Shown: positions 9,952-18,918 of the stretch, piece by piece
How positions within the stretch are numbered: position 1 is the first letter of the stretch
Layout of the letters: each line of letters opens with the position of its first letter
Source: Pyrobaculum ferrireducens
GTDB lineage: Archaea > Thermoproteota > Thermoprotei > Thermoproteales > Thermoproteaceae
Direction of reading: 5' to 3'
Length of the DNA: 64,000 bases
Assembly (NCBI RefSeq): GCF_000234805.1
Contig: NC_016645.1
Coordinates: 2,084,391 to 2,148,390 of the forward strand
Notes under the pieces: model-generated
What the model was told of the DNA's origin: nothing
The model's input: only the letters and a program-made list of their open reading frames with translations
Database searches by the model: none
Translations under genes and position numbers: made by a program

Positions 9952-10481
9952 AAGATCTTTTTGAAAACCTCTAGGAATTTTTGATACGCCTCATCGCCGT
10001 AGAGCACCACAAGTACCCGCCGCACAGTCCTTAGGCCGGGGGCCGCCTCCTTTATCGCCCTCGCCATCTGCTCAGCCGCCGCCTCGTAGGGGCATCCGAA
10101 GACCCCCGTGCTGATCGCCGGAAAGGCTATAGAAGAGAGGCCCAGCTCCTCAGCCTTGGCAAGGGCGTTTCTGACGGCGTCTCCCAGCTTCTCGATAGGC
10201 TCGGCGCCGCACCGAGGCCCAACTGCGTGGATCACGTACCTCGCCTTGAGCCTCCCCGCGGAGGTCACGGCGACGCCGCCCACAGGCACGGGGCCGTGCC
10301 TCCTGACCCACTCCCGGCTCTCCTCCTGAATTACCTGGCCCCCCTTCCTCACTATGGCCCCCGCCACGCCCCCGCCGTGCTCGAGATAGGAGTTGGCCGC
10401 GTTGACAATGGCGTCGGCCTCCACCTCCGTTATGTCGCCCTTGGCCACCACCACCGACACGGCCCCGACCCTAAACTCCAT
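9948..10481 (-). CDS. Macrodomain protein (ADP-ribose / O-acetyl-ADP-ribose deacetylase family)
   Basis: A 177-residue single macrodomain. Diagnostic motifs are [21 protein letters not shown] near residue 15, GGGVAGAI, and [13 protein letters not shown]. The last contains the conserved GxxG loop that binds the diphosphate of ADP-ribose. The family hydrolyses ADP-ribose esters or removes mono-ADP-ribose from proteins or nucleic acids. A longer reading frame begins at 10538, but the homology begins at the ATG at 10481. That ATG is preceded by the strong Shine-Dalgarno-like AAGGAGGTGG about 13 bp upstream, unusual for this mostly leaderless genome. It probably acts in clearing ADP-ribose adducts. 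Confidence 0.85.
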
Positions 10482-10744
10482 AGAGAGAAGCGGCCACCTC
10501 CTTAAAAAACTTTTATCAGCGCAAATCGATCCGCTCATACTCGCGCTGGAGCTAGCTCATCACCGGCACACACGACGCCTAGTATAAAAACGCGTCGCGC
10601 CGCCGCTCCCGCCGCCGTCTAGCAACCCTCTCAACTTTACCACTTCAATACTTGATTAGGCGCTTCGAAGTCTGTAGATTAAGAGGTCCGCCGCGTTGTT
10701 TACTTTCGATGTACTCTCTCTTCTGTACTTATTGTTAGCTGTGC

Positions 10745-10753
10745 TGATATACA
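10745..10753 (+). promoter_or_regulatory. TATA box deciding the start of the PolB-like gene
   Basis: TGATATACA, centred about 24.5 bp before GTG 10774. This spacing is the same as at other leaderless genes in the window. It argues that the AT-rich, hydrophobic-looking extension upstream (10696-10773) is promoter and not protein. Confidence 0.5.
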
Positions 10754-10773
10754 TCATTGAAAATACTTGTTTT

Positions 10774-12432
10774 GTGTATGTAATTGGCCCCAGACCGTCT
10801 GTAAAGGCCGAGAGAGTCGACTTGGTGCCTCTGGTGAGGCGCGGGTTTGTATACACAGAGTCTAGCGACGCCGTGTGGCGGGTCGCCGAGCCGGCGAGGC
10901 GCTGGGGGCCCCTCAGGGCGAAGCTGGTCGCCAGGGGCTACAGAGTGGCGCAGTCCTACATACCCCCCTCCGTCCGCGCCTACCTCGAGGGGGCCAGGAG
11001 GCCGGAGCCCGGCGGCGGCGTCGCCGCGGTGCACCTGGCGGGCGGCGTCTGGAGGTGGCGGATGGGGGAGGAGCGGGGGGTCGGTTGCCCCCCTGCGCGG
11101 TACGTGGCGTACTGGGGGCGGCGGCCGCGTTGCGGCGGCGTCTTGGTGGATCTCCGCCTGATCTACAGGAGGGGGTTCTGGATAGAGGCCGCGGAGAGGT
11201 TCGGCGACGTGTGGCTTCTCAAGGCGTGGAGGGGGGACCCCGGCGACGTGCTGGACGCCCTCTACCTCCTCGCGGCCGAGGCTGTGCGTCTGCTGGAGGC
11301 CTTTTCCTCGGTTACTGGGGTCGGGGTGGACGCCGTCTTGGATGTCTTGGAGACCAACTCAGCCGCGGCGCTGGCCGAGGCGGTTTTCCACTTCGAGGCT
11401 GAGAGGAGGGGCTACGTGGTGGAGGACTCGCGGCGGAGTTTCGACATGCCGTATTTCGACATGGCCAGGGCCAGGTCGCCGGGGATCTACAGACGCGTGG
11501 CTGAGCTCGACTTCAAATCCCTCTTCCCATCGCTGGTGGTGAAGTACGGCGTGGATCCAACCACGGCGAGGCCCTGCGCCTCCGGGCTGGAAGCCGGGGT
11601 GCTGGGTAGATACTGCTTCGACGGGGGCCCCGTGGCCGACGTCGTCGGCAGGTGGCTGAGGAGGAGGCTGGGCGCGGCGGATAGGTGGGAGTCCGAGGCG
11701 CTTAAGTGGCTTATGAACGCCGGCATAGGGGCGTGGGGCAAGGCGGGGTGGGGGATGATATGTGAGCCGTGTCTCCTCGCGGTTCGGGCCGAAGCCGCCC
11801 GCCTCTTCGACGAGGCCTGGCGCCTCTTCTCGCCTATCTACGGCGACACGGACTCCATCTACGTCGAGGAGAAGCGCGCAGGTGACGTGCTCCGCTGGGC
11901 CGAGTCCCTCGGCGGGCTGAGGCTCGAGCTGAAGGGGGTGTGGGACGTCCTCCTCCTGGCGCCGGCGAGGGGAGGCGGCGCCGCTGAGAAGAACTACGTC
12001 AAGATGGGGGCCGGGGTCTGGGAGGTGAAGGGGGGGCTTCTGAGGCCGCACGACCTCCCCCTGGCGGTGAGGCTTAGGTACCGCGACGTTGTGCGGGCCG
12101 CGGTGGAGGGCGGCGACCCGCTGGGCGTTGCCGTCGGGGCTCTGCTGGAGGCCCCGCCCGAGCAGTTGTTTATCTACAAGGCTGTGTGGAGGCGGAGGCT
12201 CGCCGAGGTGAAGAAGGCGACTCCCCTCCACGTCGCGGCGCGGTACTTCGCCGAGAGGTGCACATGCGACCCGGTGGACGTGTTCTACCTGCCGGGCTGC
12301 GGCGCCGTCTACGTCCCCTGGCTGGCGCTGGGCGGGGAGCCCAGGCCGGCGGCTCTTGAAGAGGTGAGGAGAGCCGCCGTTGAGTACGTGGAGAGGCTGT
12401 GGAAGCTCCACGCCCTTGCGCTGGCCTCATGA
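10774..12432 (+). CDS. Minimal family B DNA polymerase (PolB2-like), no exonuclease domain seen
   Basis: A 552-residue protein with all three family B polymerase motifs. Motif A is LDFKSLFPS (catalytic Asp 246), motif B is KWLMNAGIG (Lys 311, Asn 315; the canonical Ser and Tyr are replaced), and motif C is YGDTDS (residues 356-361, Asp 358 and 360). Canonical archaeal PolB1 and PolB3 are near 780-880 residues and carry a DxE exonuclease motif before motif A; I see none in residues 1-245. The size resembles the crenarchaeal PolB2 group, many of whose members have altered catalytic Asp; here they are intact. It is coupled by ATGA to the next gene. The likely role is translesion or repair synthesis. 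Confidence 0.75.
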   Translation: MYVIGPRPSVKAERVDLVPLVRRGFVYTESSDAVWRVAEPARRWGPLRAKLVARGYRVAQSYIPPSVRAYLEGARRPEPGGGVAAVHLAGGVWRWRMGEERGVGCPPARYVAYWGRRPRCGGVLVDLRLIYRRGFWIEAAERFGDVWLLKAWRGDPGDVLDALYLLAAEAVRLLEAFSSVTGVGVDAVLDVLETNSAAALAEAVFHFEAERRGYVVEDSRRSFDMPYFDMARARSPGIYRRVAELDFKSLFPSLVVKYGVDPTTARPCASGLEAGVLGRYCFDGGPVADVVGRWLRRRLGAADRWESEALKWLMNAGIGAWGKAGWGMICEPCLLAVRAEAARLFDEAWRLFSPIYGDTDSIYVEEKRAGDVLRWAESLGGLRLELKGVWDVLLLAPARGGGAAEKNYVKMGAGVWEVKGGLLRPHDLPLAVRLRYRDVVRAAVEGGDPLGVAVGALLEAPPEQLFIYKAVWRRRLAEVKKATPLHVAARYFAERCTCDPVDVFYLPGCGAVYVPWLALGGEPRPAALEEVRRAAVEYVERLWKLHALALAS

Positions 12433-12908
12433 CTACACACGGCTTCGTCAAGGCGGGCGACTTGCTGAAGGCGGCTGAGATGGCCAGGGGGCTGGGTGGG
12501 GAGGTGACCTTCTGGCACCTCTACAGGCGGTGGGGCGACTACGCCTTCGCCGTGATCGAGGCGGCACAGTTGCTGGGGGTGCTGAGGTGGGCTAGGGCGG
12601 AGAGGGGCGGGAGGACCAGGGTGGTGTATGTGTTGGGGAGGCGCGGGGCTGCTCTGCTGGACATGCTGGCCGACCCCTGCCCGGTGGAGGCGTATGTGTA
12701 CAGGGGCAGGCTCAGGCTAGTGACCCCGCTGGGGGCGTACGAGGCGGAGCCCGACCCGGGCCACCTCCTCTCGCTTGCGTATAAGCTGGCAGAGGCCTGC
12801 GGCGGGGATCCCAGAGAGGTGGCGGCTAGGCTGAGGTCTGCGGCTGAGAGGGCGGCGAGGGGCGCCAGGGGCCTCGAGAGGTGGTTGCTTGCGGGGCGCC
12901 TACCGTGA
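12429..12908 (+). CDS. Polymerase-coupled protein with predicted winged helix
   Basis: A 159-residue protein starting at ATG 12429, which overlaps the polymerase stop codon as ATGA, so translation is probably coupled. Residues 1-75 read as a winged-helix domain: GDLLKAAEMARGLGGEVTF, HLYRRWGDYAFAVIEAAQLLGVL, and a wing RTRVVYVLGRRG. The second half is basic and Ala/Arg-rich, with a probable helical bundle (VAARLRSAAERAARGARG). It is probably a DNA-binding partner or accessory subunit of the minimal polymerase; this is inference from context. It converges with the ATPase gene with a 9 bp overlap. Confidence 0.6.
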   Translation: MTTHGFVKAGDLLKAAEMARGLGGEVTFWHLYRRWGDYAFAVIEAAQLLGVLRWARAERGGRTRVVYVLGRRGAALLDMLADPCPVEAYVYRGRLRLVTPLGAYEAEPDPGHLLSLAYKLAEACGGDPREVAARLRSAAERAARGARGLERWLLAGRLP

Positions 12909-14204
12909 GGTGTTGCATGGAGCGGCTTCGAATATGTCGCCGGCGTCTAGGAGCCAGGGGGGCTTCTCCCCCAGGGCCCTCCTTGCCACGACGTAGTAGC
13001 GGCCCTCTCTGCCGCCGCTCTTAGCCTTGAGCTCCCTCAGCACCTCCTCCGCCTCGTCCCGGGTTAAGTCGGCCCACTTGACTTCAAACGCCGCGTAGCC
13101 CCCCTCCCCCACGCAGACCAGGTCGATCTCCACGTCTCCGCTCCAGTACCTCCCGCATCTGCCCCCAGCCGCCGCGAGTCCCCTCTCCCGCAGACGGGGG
13201 AGGGCCCTCCGCACCACCTCCTCGTAAGCCGACTGCATGTACCTATCCACATCCGCAGGTGCGGCGCCTCCCAGCTCTACAAGCTCCCTGTGTCTATAGA
13301 CGGCGCGGATCCAGAACTTGACGTAGAGATCCGACACGACGTAGATAGGCCTGGCTTTTCCCAACACAGGAACCTCCCGCCTAACGACCTCCAACCTCTC
13401 AAGCACGGCTAGGTACTTGGCGAGGGTCTGGGAGGGGATTCGGGACCTGTCCGCGATCTCGGAGTACGTAGTCGCCCCCTCCTCGATGGCCCTCACGATG
13501 TTTAGATAGACGTGGGGCTCCCTCACCTCGAAGCGGAGCAGGTTCTCCGCCTCCTCGTACAGAGGCCCCCACTTGGAGAAGAGCCGCTCCAAATTACCCC
13601 AGAGCCCCCGCCCCGCCTCAAAAAGCGATATGTAGTACGGCACGCCGTTGGTCACCGCGTAGGCCACAGCCAGCTCCTCGGCGCAGAAAGGCAACATTAG
13701 ACGAGCCACATGCGGGGCGAACGGGCCCAGCCTCAGCTGGGCGGTCCGCCTCCCGAAGAGCCCCCCGCCGTAGGACAGAGACTTCTCCACAAGCGACACG
13801 GTCGACGACAGGAGGATTAGAAACAGGGGAGCTCTAGAAGACACCTCGTCCCACAGCTGCTGGAGCTTAGACAGCACCCCGGGGTCCTCCTCCACCCAGT
13901 AGGTAAACTCGTCAACAGCCAGCACAAACCTCCCAGCCCCCGCCAGCGCCTCCGCCACAGACCCCCAGTCAGCCCTCACGTACGTCCCCAATGCCCTGGA
14001 GAGGGCCTCGGCAAGCCTCTCCAGCTCCACCCCCATCGGCTGGCGGAGCGCGTGTATATACACGCCCCGCTTCCCCTCCAGAAACTTCTTAACCAGCCAA
14101 GTCTTCCCAACCCTACGCCTGCCATAGACCACCACAAGCTGCGGCCTGCCCCCTCTATACAGCTCCTCCAAAAACCCCAGCTCCCCCTCCCTATCAATAA
14201 ACAC
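12900..14204 (-). CDS. Archaeal AAA-type ATPase with DUF234-like C-terminal domain
   Basis: A 434-residue STAND/AAA-like ATPase of the archaeal ATPase_2 family. It opens with FIDREGELGFLEELY, then Walker A VVYGRRRVGKTWL (about 25-37) and Walker B FVLAVDEFTYW, followed by a sensor strand LFLILLSSTVSL. A winged helix sits near residues 235-275 (YSEIADRSRIPSQTLAKYLA). The C-terminus is a DUF234/PD-(D/E)xK-like domain (DVEIDLVCVGEGGYAAFEVKW). These proteins are abundant in hyperthermophilic archaea and have no settled function; some resemble toxin or mobile-element ATPases. Start GTG 14204 lies 25 bp from a TATA box embedded in two palindromes (14222-14250), suggesting autoregulation. Confidence 0.8.
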   Translation of the reverse strand: MFIDREGELGFLEELYRGGRPQLVVVYGRRRVGKTWLVKKFLEGKRGVYIHALRQPMGVELERLAEALSRALGTYVRADWGSVAEALAGAGRFVLAVDEFTYWVEEDPGVLSKLQQLWDEVSSRAPLFLILLSSTVSLVEKSLSYGGGLFGRRTAQLRLGPFAPHVARLMLPFCAEELAVAYAVTNGVPYYISLFEAGRGLWGNLERLFSKWGPLYEEAENLLRFEVREPHVYLNIVRAIEEGATTYSEIADRSRIPSQTLAKYLAVLERLEVVRREVPVLGKARPIYVVSDLYVKFWIRAVYRHRELVELGGAAPADVDRYMQSAYEEVVRRALPRLRERGLAAAGGRCGRYWSGDVEIDLVCVGEGGYAAFEVKWADLTRDEAEEVLRELKAKSGGREGRYYVVARRALGEKPPWLLDAGDIFEAAPCNTSR

Positions 14205-15130: not shown

Positions 15131-15274
15131 ATGGTCAACGAAGTAGAAGGAGAGATATATGAAAGGTCCGAGGCAGAACCGTCGGTAGGCGCGTGTGGGG
15201 ACGTGGGCAGAGACGCGCCGCTGGATCAAAGTGGCGTCGCTGGCCCCTCATGGCGTGGATTAAGCGGAACGTAG
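15131..15274 (+). CDS. Possible 47-codon upstream reading frame before the MFS transporter
   Basis: The ATG at 15131 lies about 24 bp from the TATA box TTTTTAAA, exactly where a leaderless transcript should begin. It opens a 47-residue frame (MVNEVEGEIYERSEAEPSVG...) that ends 24 bp inside the transporter gene in another frame. It could be a real small protein, a translated leader that modulates the transporter, or an artefact of a mis-set transporter start. The sequence has no recognised motif. Confidence 0.3.
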   Translation: MVNEVEGEIYERSEAEPSVGACGDVGRDAPLDQSGVAGPSWRGLSGT

Positions 15275-16413
15275 CTATACTCTACGGAGTTGGCTACAGT
15301 AAGGGGTTTATAAACGGGTTTCTGACGTGGTACCTATCCCTCAAGCTGTACGACTGGGGCCTCGCCGTCTTCGCCGTGGTGAGGCTCGCGGCGCAGGTGC
15401 TAGACTCCGCCGCCAACCTGGCGGGGGGCTACCTAGCCGATAGAATTGGGCGGAAGCCCACGTTGATAATTACAGACGTGGTGTACATCTCCTCAATCCT
15501 ATGCCTCTTGAAGCCGGAGCTCCTCCCGCTGGCGGTGTTGCTGTTCCACATCGCAGACGGCCTCCCCACGTCGGCCTCCTTCGTCATGCGTATAGAGTCC
15601 GTCCCCGAGAACTGGAGGGGGAAGATCATCTCAATAGGCCCCGCCCTCTCATACGCCTCGTACGCCGCCGGCTCCTTTGCCCTGGGGCTAGTCGCCGCCT
15701 CCCACGGACATACGTGGGCTGTCTACGTCATATTGGCGATATCAGCCGCGGGCCTCGCCGCCAGATTCCTCCTCATAGAGACCGCGAGGAGGACCTCGAC
15801 CTCCACCTCCCTCAGCTACCTCAGGGAGTTGAAAACTGTATTCACCTCGCGCATCTACGGCAGAGTGCTCGCCGTGATGACGCTTCTCGGCATCTCCTTC
15901 GCAATCTCGACCTTCATAGCACCCTTCCTAAAAGAGGTGGTGGGCATGTCGGAGCGCGAGATCGCCATGTTCTTTACCCTCTACAACCTCGTGCCCATAC
16001 CCATCTCGCTGGCGCTGGGCCACCTCGTGGATAAGTACAGAGAGTCGATCCCCCGGCTCATGGCGGCTCTGCTACTCGCAGACTTCCCCTTCACCGCCTT
16101 ATTCGCGTTGCTCAGCCCGGCGGCGCCCATCTTCGCCTACGCCATGCTGGGAAGCGTCTCTCTGGCCTCGATATACAGAGCGGCGTTAAACATATACGTC
16201 TCAGAGGTCTTTAAAACCCACAGAGGCCTGCTGGTGGCCCTCAACGCGGTACTCACAGCCAACCTCCCCGGCGTCGCTACCCCCCTGGTTGCCGCGTTAT
16301 GGGCCGCGCTAGGCCCCACGCCGGCTATACTCCTAGTGGCGGCGGCCAGACTCGCCGCCGCGGCCGCACTGCTGGCCAGCTACGGGAAGAGATCCACCGG
16401 GCCCCCCACCTGA
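15250..16413 (+). CDS. Major facilitator superfamily transporter
   Basis: A 387-residue integral membrane protein with about 12 helices. The MFS loop 2-3 signature GGYLADRIGRKP is present near residue 57, and a related GHLVDKYRES appears at the start of the second half (about residue 257), as expected for the internal duplication of MFS carriers. The substrate cannot be told from sequence. ATG 15250 is chosen because MAWIKRN is followed directly by helix 1; an in-frame GTG at 15193 would add a polar, arginine-rich leader that looks non-coding. The preceding transcript start seems to be at 15131, giving this gene a leader of about 120 nt, which is unusual here. Confidence 0.8.
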   Translation: MAWIKRNVAILYGVGYSKGFINGFLTWYLSLKLYDWGLAVFAVVRLAAQVLDSAANLAGGYLADRIGRKPTLIITDVVYISSILCLLKPELLPLAVLLFHIADGLPTSASFVMRIESVPENWRGKIISIGPALSYASYAAGSFALGLVAASHGHTWAVYVILAISAAGLAARFLLIETARRTSTSTSLSYLRELKTVFTSRIYGRVLAVMTLLGISFAISTFIAPFLKEVVGMSEREIAMFFTLYNLVPIPISLALGHLVDKYRESIPRLMAALLLADFPFTALFALLSPAAPIFAYAMLGSVSLASIYRAALNIYVSEVFKTHRGLLVALNAVLTANLPGVATPLVAALWAALGPTPAILLVAAARLAAAAALLASYGKRSTGPPT

Positions 16414-16679: not shown

Positions 16680-16805
16680 GGGCCCGTAGCTCAGCCAGGT
16701 GGAGCGCCCTGGGGCGGCGCCCCGCGTATGGCTCATAACCGGGCGGTCCCGTCAAGCCCCCGCGTGGGGGCTTGGGATAAGGTTCAAATCCCGGCGGGCC
16801 CACCA
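16680..16805 (+). tRNA. tRNA with CAT anticodon and two non-canonical introns (probably tRNA-Ile2)
   Basis: The 7-bp acceptor stem GGGCCCG / CGGGCCC (16680-16686 and 16795-16801) is followed by an encoded ACCA (16802-16805). The D-arm GCTC...GAGC is intact. A cloverleaf forms only if two segments are removed. A ~20 nt intron (16710-16729) lies between positions 29 and 30 of the anticodon stem, and a ~29 nt intron (16752-16780) lies between positions 51 and 52 of the T stem; exact ends are ambiguous by a base or two. After removal, stems CCCGG/CCGGG and CCGGG/CCCGG pair perfectly. The anticodon CAT is at 16734-16736. The acceptor resembles archaeal tRNA-Ile, so tRNA-Ile2 (agmatidine-modified CAU) is favoured over elongator Met. 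Confidence 0.9.
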
Positions 16806-16872
16806 CCTTGCCTCTGGGTGTATTTTGCGTAGTTTTTCTTGGATTTTGCTGGTTGTGGATGCTCTCAAATGA

Positions 16873-17079
16873 TTAGGGGTGGCATTTTTGTTGTGGCTTG
16901 CCTATGCTCTTTAGGCATTCCGCTGGGATGTATTTCAACGTCTCGTCTCTTTGGCTATGTGCCGTGATGTAGGGGTAGAAATATCGTGGTGTTGGTATAA
17001 TCCTCAGTTTGTAGGGCTTTTGCCATGGGGAGTAAACTTGGGCTCGAAATCCGGCGTCTCCATCAATCCCTCCCCGGTC
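16873..17079 (-). pseudogene. Probable gene remnant downstream of the tRNA
   Basis: On the minus strand a frame of about 68 codons without a usable start reads like genuine protein: GFRAQVYSPWQKPYKLR, IIPTPRYFYPYITAHS, then ETLKYIPAECLKSIG, ending at TAA 16873-16875. An ATG at 17063 opens a second frame (METPDFEPKFTPHG) that soon stops, suggesting a frameshifted gene. A TATA-like CTTATAAA lies upstream near 17101. The family is not recognised. The rest of 16806-17262 shows only a T-rich tract after the tRNA and a 26-codon frame at 17165 behind a TTTTTATA box. Confidence 0.35.
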
Positions 17080-17262
17080 TCAGTTGGCGACCTGGCCCTT
17101 TATAAGTCGAGTATATCTTATTTTCAGTTTTCTCTCTCCTAGAGTTTTTATACGTGGAGAAGATATGAATGTCCCTACTACTGCTGTCTGTGGTTTGGCT
17201 GGTCGCCAGGTGGAGCGGCGTGGTGAGTCTTTTAATCTGCTTTAGATTGCTGGAGTGGGTGT

Positions 17263-18918
17263 ATGCCAGCTGTAGCTAGGTGTTTCTGGGGTTTTCTCCA
17301 CTTGGGGGATCAGATCTTGTGTCGTTCTATTGATTGGATAAGGGGGGCGCGTTATCTGCCGTGTGAGGTGTCGTCTGCTGGGCTTCCCAATGTTGACGAT
17401 TTTGTTGCTCTCTGCTTTTACTACTCCAAGGAGGCTGGTTTTGGGAACCAAGCGTCTCTTGAGACTCTGAGACTTAAGAAATCTGCAGAAGTTGCTAAAT
17501 GGCTGGGAATAGCTATGGCGTTTGTAATAGAGGATAGGTGGTCGAGCGACTTAAACAGAGCGGTTGTTGTTCCAATGCCCAAGCACCCAGAGGAGAAGAA
17601 GGGATACAACCAGGCGCTTGAGCTCGCCAGAGTTGTCGTAGATAGCTTAACTCAACAAGGATATCGCATAGTACTCGAAGATGACGTTGTGGGGAAGAAA
17701 TTGCCGATATCGTCTACTGAAATTAGAAGTTCCTGTAGAAAAGATTTTGATTGTGCTGTGAGGCGCCACGAAGAGAACTTGGTGGTGCTTAAACAGCTGG
17801 ATAGGCCTGTGGCGGTTATTATCGACGACGTTAGGACTACGGGCGCCTCTGTGGCGGCGTTGGCTAAAAAGCTGAGAGAGGCGGGGGCCAGGAGGGTATA
17901 CGCTGCAGTCATCTCACGCGATGCTGTAATAAAGGACGTAGGTAGGTGTATCGTGAAAGAGATATATGAGGTTCATGATTATTATGACGACAATTATCCT
18001 TATACTCTGGACGAGCTGGCTGAGATATACAGCGCGGCCATACACTGGCGGAGGGAGTGGGGTCCCATAAGGAGTCTAGCCGCTAAACTGAAGGACGGAG
18101 CTGAGCTTATAGGCTTACTTAGACAGCTTCCTTCATTTAGCCTTGCTCAGCAAAAGGCCGCGGAGCTGAGGGGCTCGCTGGAGTTAGCCATTAAGCTGGG
18201 GGCTGTGCCGCTTCCCATGGGGTGGGGCGAGTACCCAAAGCTCCTCATGGAATACGGCCGCGGCGTGGTGGACCCACCATTGTTAATTTTTCGTATGGGG
18301 AGGCCTCTCAACTTCGTCGAGTGGCCTGTGGCTGTGGTGGGGACCAGAGATCCCACTGAAAGCGGGCTCAAGGCGGCGGCGGAGGTGGGCCGCCTCCTAG
18401 CTAAGAGGGGCGTGCCGGTGGTGACGGGTTTAGCCAGGGGCGTCGACACGGCGGCGGTAAAGGGCGCGCGCTCAGCCGGCGGCTGGGTCATAGGCGTGTG
18501 GCCAGCGCTGTGGAGAAGAGTGCTGGAGTCCACCGAGCCGCGCCGAACGCATATAGTGCTGTACCGCGAGATTTCGTATTTTCTCAAAAGAGGCAACTCA
18601 ACTGTGGTGGCTGAGTACGCCTTTGGTGACGACGCTAGGCGAGGCTTCGACCAGATGCTGGCCGCGAGAAATAGGATAATTTCGGGTATGTCGAGAGCTG
18701 TAATCATCCCGGAGTCTAGGTACAGAGAAAGGGGCTGGGGCACCAAGTACCAGGTGAAGTACGGCATTAAAGCCGGCAGAGTCGTAATAGTAATGAAGCC
18801 CAGCACAGACGCAGAAGACGTGTGGCGTGCATTTAAGTACTTTGTAGACAGAGGGGCGGTGGAAGCCAAAGACCCCGAGGATGCGGTAGAAATCGCGCTC
18901 AGCACAAACCCCCTCTAG
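17263..18918 (+). CDS. ComF-like phosphoribosyltransferase fused to DprA/Smf (SLOG) domain
   Basis: A 551-residue two-domain protein. Residues 1-230 resemble ComF/ComFC: paired Cys near the start (Cys 20, 34), VVVPMPKHPEEKKGYNQALE (102-121) and the PRPP-binding loop VIIDDVRTTGAS (185-196). Residues 310-545 match DprA/Smf: VAVVGTRDP (356-364), TGLARGVDTAA (388-398) and ARNRIISGMS (468-477). In bacteria ComF and DprA are separate competence proteins. DprA binds ssDNA and loads RecA, and its Rossmann fold belongs to the SLOG class, which also occurs in nucleotide-signal immune systems. A single-chain fusion suggests one reaction or pathway links them. ATG 17263 has no strong TATA box at the usual distance. 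Confidence 0.8.
   Translation: MPAVARCFWGFLHLGDQILCRSIDWIRGARYLPCEVSSAGLPNVDDFVALCFYYSKEAGFGNQASLETLRLKKSAEVAKWLGIAMAFVIEDRWSSDLNRAVVVPMPKHPEEKKGYNQALELARVVVDSLTQQGYRIVLEDDVVGKKLPISSTEIRSSCRKDFDCAVRRHEENLVVLKQLDRPVAVIIDDVRTTGASVAALAKKLREAGARRVYAAVISRDAVIKDVGRCIVKEIYEVHDYYDDNYPYTLDELAEIYSAAIHWRREWGPIRSLAAKLKDGAELIGLLRQLPSFSLAQQKAAELRGSLELAIKLGAVPLPMGWGEYPKLLMEYGRGVVDPPLLIFRMGRPLNFVEWPVAVVGTRDPTESGLKAAAEVGRLLAKRGVPVVTGLARGVDTAAVKGARSAGGWVIGVWPALWRRVLESTEPRRTHIVLYREISYFLKRGNSTVVAEYAFGDDARRGFDQMLAARNRIISGMSRAVIIPESRYRERGWGTKYQVKYGIKAGRVVIVMKPSTDAEDVWRAFKYFVDRGAVEAKDPEDAVEIALSTNPL

Follow-up and report, generated by a model that had tools for sequence, protein, structure and literature searches.

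The gene at positions 17263–18918 of the window, by which we mean the whole 64,000-nucleotide stretch of Pyrobaculum ferrireducens DNA analysed here, raises the question of whether a ComF-like phosphoribosyltransferase (PRTase) and DprA have been naturally joined in an archaeon and, if so, what the joined protein does. A sequence-only reading had proposed such a fusion, describing one 551-codon gene with a ComF PRPP loop and three DprA motifs. The open reading frame starts with ATG and encodes 551 amino acids plus a stop, with zero internal stops, and all of the motifs are present in it: VIIDDVRTTGAS at amino acids 185–196, VAVVGTR at 356–362, TGLARGVDTAA at 388–398, and ARNRIISGMS at 468–477. 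A single open gene at this position joins PRTase, linker, and DprA end to end, with the following features.

17230..17237, + strand: possible TATA-like element TTTTAATC, about 29 bp 5′ of the ATG and suggestive of a leaderless transcript (sequence)
17263..18918, + strand: ComF-like PRTase–DprA fusion gene (open reading frame, domain matches, and a 90%-identical orthologue in the sister species)
17263..17997, + strand: NH2-terminal ComF-like phosphoribosyltransferase half, amino acids 1–245 (family models, profile-profile comparison)
17563..17628, + strand: PPi-loop region with ComF-type signature VVVPMPKHPEEKKGYNQALELA, amino acids 101–122 (invariant alignment positions)
17815..17850, + strand: PRPP loop VIIDDVRTTGAS, amino acids 185–196 (aligned with DDIITTGTTL of HpComFC; PMC9005727)
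17998..18198, + strand: helical linker joining the halves, amino acids 246–312 (secondary structure of the model)
18199..18915, + strand: DprA (SLOG/Rossmann) half, amino acids 313–551, without a COOH-terminal winged helix (Pfam match, alignment, structure match)
18328..18348, + strand: DprA phosphate-binding motif VAVVGTR, in which R362 aligns with R115 of 3uqz (alignment)
18424..18456, + strand: DprA motif TGLARGVDTAA (sequence, alignment of relatives)
18664..18693, + strand: DprA motif ARNRIISGMS (sequence, alignment of relatives)

The search for the same domain order in other archaea yielded an intact fusion in the sister species (G003; 90% identical over its full length and at the same site beside tRNA-Met) as well as fusions at other sites in Thermoproteus sp. 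CP80, where the gene is truncated at a contig end, and in a Caldivirga MAG. A fifth genome (G039) carries the fusion spread across three reading frames of a single strand, as a result of either a broken gene or sequencing errors. Given that the fusion recurs in these independent assemblies, an assembly error, which had been named as a possible refutation, was ruled out as its source, and the fusion is a natural one that extends to two further genera. All fused copies lie within the order Thermoproteales, and their distribution is patchy, with a match in 10 of 81 genomes of the class and the fusion in only 2 of 11 genomes of the genus. No fused homologue covering 80% of the query was detected in phage or plasmid records, and none was detected in the viral contigs searched. 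A motif scan of genome contigs returned fusions only in Thermoproteus CP80 and Caldivirga, with patterns that were narrow and negatives that are correspondingly weak. The CP80 assembly (G018) also contains, at the end of contig C26 (L025, 1–315), a fragment of a second DprA, which may be a further copy or a piece of the same gene separated during assembly.

Family models matched the PRTase half weakly, with TIGR00201 (comF) giving 1.9e-7 and 31 bits against a cut-off of 234 (threshold of 233.6) bits and Pribosyltran giving 0.08. Comparison with canonical ComF by hhalign gave 99.3% and an E value of 5e-20, and the ComF-like identity of this half is thus firm at the level of profiles despite the weak family models. 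The PRPP loop, PPi loop, and ComF-type NQ motif that define the ComF/PRT family are all present. The PRPP loop is complete in the window protein and intact in every copy compared, and the ComF-type GYNQALELA motif, which is absent from ShosT, is kept. The NH2-terminal four-cysteine zinc finger of ComFC is missing, with only C7, C20, and C34 remaining, scattered in amino acids 1–45; the Caldivirga fusion and unfused relatives have a fuller Cys-rich finger, most of which is lost from the window and CP80 proteins.

For the DprA half, Pfam DNA_processg_A (PF02481) matched amino acids 322–516 (E value of 1e-26, 94 bits, cut-off of 30), and the extended Rossmann/SLOG fold and the GTR, GLAxGxD, and RNR motifs of that family were all found. 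The score against the TIGR00732 DprA equivalog was 85 bits, short of its threshold of 191 bits. The key motif residues are invariant across the aligned relatives of the fusion, and a basic residue is retained in the alignment near the K175 position. In an AlphaFold model of the full protein (mean pLDDT of 76.5, pTM of 0.59), the first 40 residues are unreliable, and the PRTase core (about amino acids 61–220) mostly has pLDDT values of 70–94. The SLOG fold expected by the sequence-only reading was recovered in this model as a DprA Rossmann fold, with Foldseek TM scores by target of 0.64–0.78 for DprA structures in the PDB and 0.59 for ShosA (8zva); LOG and Moco-carrier proteins were also among the matches. 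When the PRTase half was modelled by itself and with no alignment, the pLDDT was 44 and the model was of no use.

The gene had been described as lying just downstream of a tRNA gene amid gene debris, in a typical island position. It does adjoin a tRNA-Met gene (16680–16803), whose sequence is interrupted by an intron 5′ of the anticodon and, in the T-arm region, by a second insertion that the homologue of a related genome, G006, lacks; ARAGORN missed this gene and called no tRNA anywhere in the window. The supposed debris (16804–17262) has no match in the genus apart from the sister species, where it is conserved at 96%. G006 represents an empty site, in which tRNA-Met is followed by about 100 bp, a rhomboid gene, and then an aldo/keto reductase gene; relative to this arrangement, the fusion (about 2.2 kb including the upstream region) is inserted between the tRNA and rhomboid genes. 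A gene for an MFS transporter upstream of the tRNA (15193–16413, + strand) is present in the window and the sister species and absent between the same flanks in G006, and at the site in the sister species a PaREP1 gene is found in place of the rhomboid gene of the G006/window type. No duplicated tRNA end was found in the window, and integration at the tRNA was set aside on this basis; the locus yielded no attachment-site duplication and no integrase. It is not a clear defence island, with the sole neighbour match being to a candidate family, and no separate effector gene was found near the fusion.

12900..14204, − strand: ATPase_2/DUF234 protein, PADLOC candidate PDC-S27, 118 bits (PADLOC)

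The GC3 value is 0.49 for the PRTase half and 0.69 for the DprA half, compared with 0.74 ± 0.09 for 35 large open reading frames of the window. The value for the PRTase half lies outside this range, and at least the first half of the gene therefore looks foreign in composition. Comparison of the window with the sister species gave a dN/dS ratio of 0.46 for the fusion, versus 0.07–0.22 for three neighbours, a value from which the gene is judged to be under constraint. Identity between the sister species is 79% for amino acids 46–180, 97% for amino acids 181–245 (the part with the PRPP loop), and 92.5% for the DprA half. Divergence in the first of these segments (window 17398–17802) is raised at both silent and replacement sites, with a dS of 0.22 versus about 0.1 in most flanks, which suggests a recombined or fast-evolving tract.

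Genes for the two domains also occur side by side in unfused form. The clade of the window protein comprises four fusions and one frame-broken copy, two pairs (one with DprA first, one divergent), and one lone DprA. The DprA and ComF genes of T. tenax (G016) adjoin and overlap, with DprA first; those for DprA and PRTase are divergent in G048; and in G187 the PRTase gene is first and overlaps that for DprA. In the wider phylum, a PRTase gene directly adjoins DprA, usually with overlap, at 11 of the 14 assessable distant DprA loci fetched. The fused proteins fall together in the DprA tree, in a weakly supported group (85/67) whose sister is the lone DprA of G002 (97/92), followed by T. tenax and G048, and the PRTase tree, which has long branches and 13 open forks, broadly agrees. 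Given the grouping in the first tree and the broad match in the second, a single fusion event likely underlies all fused copies. An alignment that combined lone PRTases with lone DprA proteins was left out because it misaligned the PRPP loop with the GTR motif. In G002 (L027, 8098–8787 on the − strand and 10006–10938 on the + strand), an open reading frame that by eye resembles archaeal radA is found about 1.2 kb from the lone DprA, the sister of the fused DprA half.

DprA and PRTase pairs are carried by the phages Riah, Vasanti, and phiOH2 and by plasmids of Sphingobium, Embleya, Rhizobium, and the haloarchaeon Halopiger, in the last case beside an integrase. The Caldivirga fusion lies about 2.4 kb from an archaeal phage integrase, and an integrase was found nearby only for the Caldivirga and haloarchaeal copies. 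On plasmids of NT-25 and Rhizobium leguminosarum (L131, L132), two different DprA and PRTase pairs lie side by side in convergent orientation. On a Priestia plasmid (L120, 1140–3858), a 576–amino acid protein with PRTase-like and HAD hydrolase regions is encoded directly 5′ of a DprA gene. In G174 (L101, 3895–10000), a DISARM-type operon encodes DrmA (606 bits), DrmB (219 bits), a PRTase in third place, and then a 264–amino acid protein with a Cys-rich start. This PRTase groups with the archaeal clade of the fusion (94/95), which by its gene context is a hint of a defence role. The other relative examined (G390) has no DrmB at its locus, and the combination of DISARM and PRTase is thus a single case; we found no description of the DrmA-DrmB-PRTase combination in the literature.

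A further proposal had been that the protein is a defence or DNA-uptake module. ComEC (PF03772), the channel of the bacterial natural-transformation machinery, is absent from the complete genome of the organism, whereas control genomes were positive in 10 of 14 cases. Because the complete genome lacks ComEC, competence of the bacterial type, and with it a role for the fusion in such DNA uptake, is unlikely from gene content; the defence part of the proposal is a reasonable idea. The TTX_0242/0243 pair of T. tenax was published in 2011 as competence genes "so far unique within Archaea" (PMC3189178). Given the wider archaeal occurrence seen here, the label "unique" is unsupported, and our data suggest that these genes belong to a patchy, mobile DprA-PRTase system of several archaeal lineages rather than to DNA uptake.

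It had also been argued that a fusion places ComF and DprA in the same step. The two do belong to one functional unit, with the halves adjacent in relatives, and such linkage was already known: from ShosTA and the helicase-PRTase/DprA system RqlHI (PsyrTA) (PMC9122126, PMC5512222), from the binding of DprA by ComFC of Streptococcus and Campylobacter (PMC9005727), and from T. tenax. ShosTA, a toxin-antitoxin and anti-phage pair, protects E. coli against T7 and lambda (PMC9122126), and, according to a review (PMC12593503) citing Pu 2025, ShosT disturbs the cellular purines and ShosA is a DNA-binding protein. The window protein does encode a PRTase and a DprA-like protein as one unit, in a single open reading frame that corresponds to pairs in relatives. 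With PADLOC it scored 97 bits for ShosA and 31 bits for ShosT, compared with 309–328 and 143–151 bits, respectively, for true pairs from one phage and one plasmid. These scores do not discriminate as proof of ShosTA, given that the housekeeping proteins Smf (195 bits to ShosA) and YhgH (27 bits to ShosT) of E. coli score comparably or better. In profile comparison, the two halves scored 133 for canonical ComF versus 60 for ShosT and 158 for canonical DprA versus 112 for ShosA, and in both trees they fall in their own archaeal clade, apart from those of ShosT (100/99) and ShosA. We therefore rejected membership of ShosTA for both halves on profiles and trees; likeness in mode of working is a separate question.

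We favour, with a probability of about 0.48, a single-chain DprA-PRTase module outside the ShosT and ShosA families that works in the manner of ShosTA, its one polypeptide serving as both sensor/antitoxin and effector. The fusion would be a mobile two-gene system, recurrent in unfused form, with its partners joined end to end. Its DprA half would bind ssDNA or abnormal replication or recombination intermediates arising from virus infection or DNA damage and would gate the PRTase half, either holding or releasing it. The PRTase half may bind or consume PRPP or nucleotides and, on release, would upset nucleotide pools and so halt growth or virus replication, as with ShosT. The recurrent pairing, mobile carriage, patchiness, lack of ComEC, the DISARM PRTase of G174, the precedent of ShosTA, and the constraint on the gene indicate that the module, as a mobile device, probably serves in defence or under DNA stress and not in DNA uptake. 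The ShosTA-like reading is weakened by the greater closeness of the halves to ComF and DprA, the non-discriminating PADLOC scores, the lack of a clear defence island, and the position of the lone G002 DprA near a radA-like gene. In addition, a fused antitoxin cannot be lost or degraded apart from its toxin, which counts against a toxin/antitoxin reading. Less likely than not, in our view, is that the protein acts as a one-polypeptide, ssDNA-triggered PRTase immune effector of hyperthermophilic archaea, with DprA detecting viral or damaged DNA and the response being an attack on the PRPP or nucleotide pool; if true, two proteins known from competence, ComF and DprA, would be tied to antiviral immunity in archaea, and the DprA-PRTase contact could be studied within a single protein.

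The observation that ComF and DprA are the nearest canonical families of the halves would also fit a recombination mediator, in which both halves jointly bind ssDNA and pass it to RadA, in repair or after DNA import by another route, with PRPP or nucleotide binding being regulatory rather than toxic. HpComFC binds both PRPP and ssDNA, and its counterparts in Streptococcus and Campylobacter bind DprA (PMC9005727); the lone DprA of the same clade lies near a radA-like gene; and both R362 and the basic residue near the K175 position are kept. Such a role is a serious rival that is nonetheless made less likely by the very patchy distribution, phage and plasmid carriage, the missing ComEC, and the loss of most of the zinc finger from the window and CP80 proteins, as well as a PRPP loop that is intact in every copy even though the cytosolic ssDNA role of ComFC in H. 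pylori is independent of nucleotide binding (PMC9005727).

The conserved PRPP-loop residues, together with the place of DprA within the SLOG superfamily and the Foldseek matches to LOG and Moco-carrier proteins, might instead indicate a signalling device, with the PRTase half converting PRPP into a nucleotide-derived signal and the DprA half binding it, as in other conflict systems centred on nucleotides. SLOG domains of the DprA type are DNA binders rather than signal binders, however, the GTR and ARNRI motifs match the DprA type, and no separate effector lies nearby, and we consider this possibility very unlikely. A decaying or neutral fusion, left without function as a remnant of a mobile element, would account for the elevated dN/dS, the rapid change in amino acids 46–180, and the broken frame in G039; it is highly improbable for a gene that has stayed intact in both sister species as well as in two other genera, is so well conserved between the sisters in amino acids 181–245 and the DprA half, and has invariant key motif residues.

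Whatever the function of the protein, fusion fixes a 1:1 stoichiometry and the closeness of partners whose joint action is debated, both for ComFC-DprA in competence and for ShosTA in defence, and a thermostable form in a single chain lends itself in practice to structural and biochemical analysis. The domain pair and its linkage were already known; in the open-access literature, we found no description of the fused single chain or of the Thermoproteales clade.

Among known systems, ShosTA resembles the window protein in having the same two domain classes as a unit, in mobility, in its intact PRPP loop, and in its DprA fold, whereas the window protein is fused in one chain, is archaeal, contains GYNQALELA, and belongs to a separate clade in both trees. 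PsyrTA/RqlHI likewise couples PRTase and DprA functionally, whereas the window protein has no helicase domain and its PRTase is fused straight to DprA. The DISARM-type operon of G174 contains a PRTase of the same archaeal clade, but one partnered with DrmA and DrmB rather than with DprA. Canonical ComFC and DprA/Smf are the nearest known families by profile comparison, but they are encoded by separate genes and require ComEC, whereas the window protein has largely lost the zinc finger and scores below the NCBI equivalog cut-offs. The halves of the window protein match the profile group of archaeal pairs with E values of 2e-41 (DprA) and 6e-33 (PRTase), and the closest unfused pair in the family is TTX_0242 (DprA) and TTX_0243 (ComF) of T. 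tenax, which differs in consisting of two genes with DprA first.
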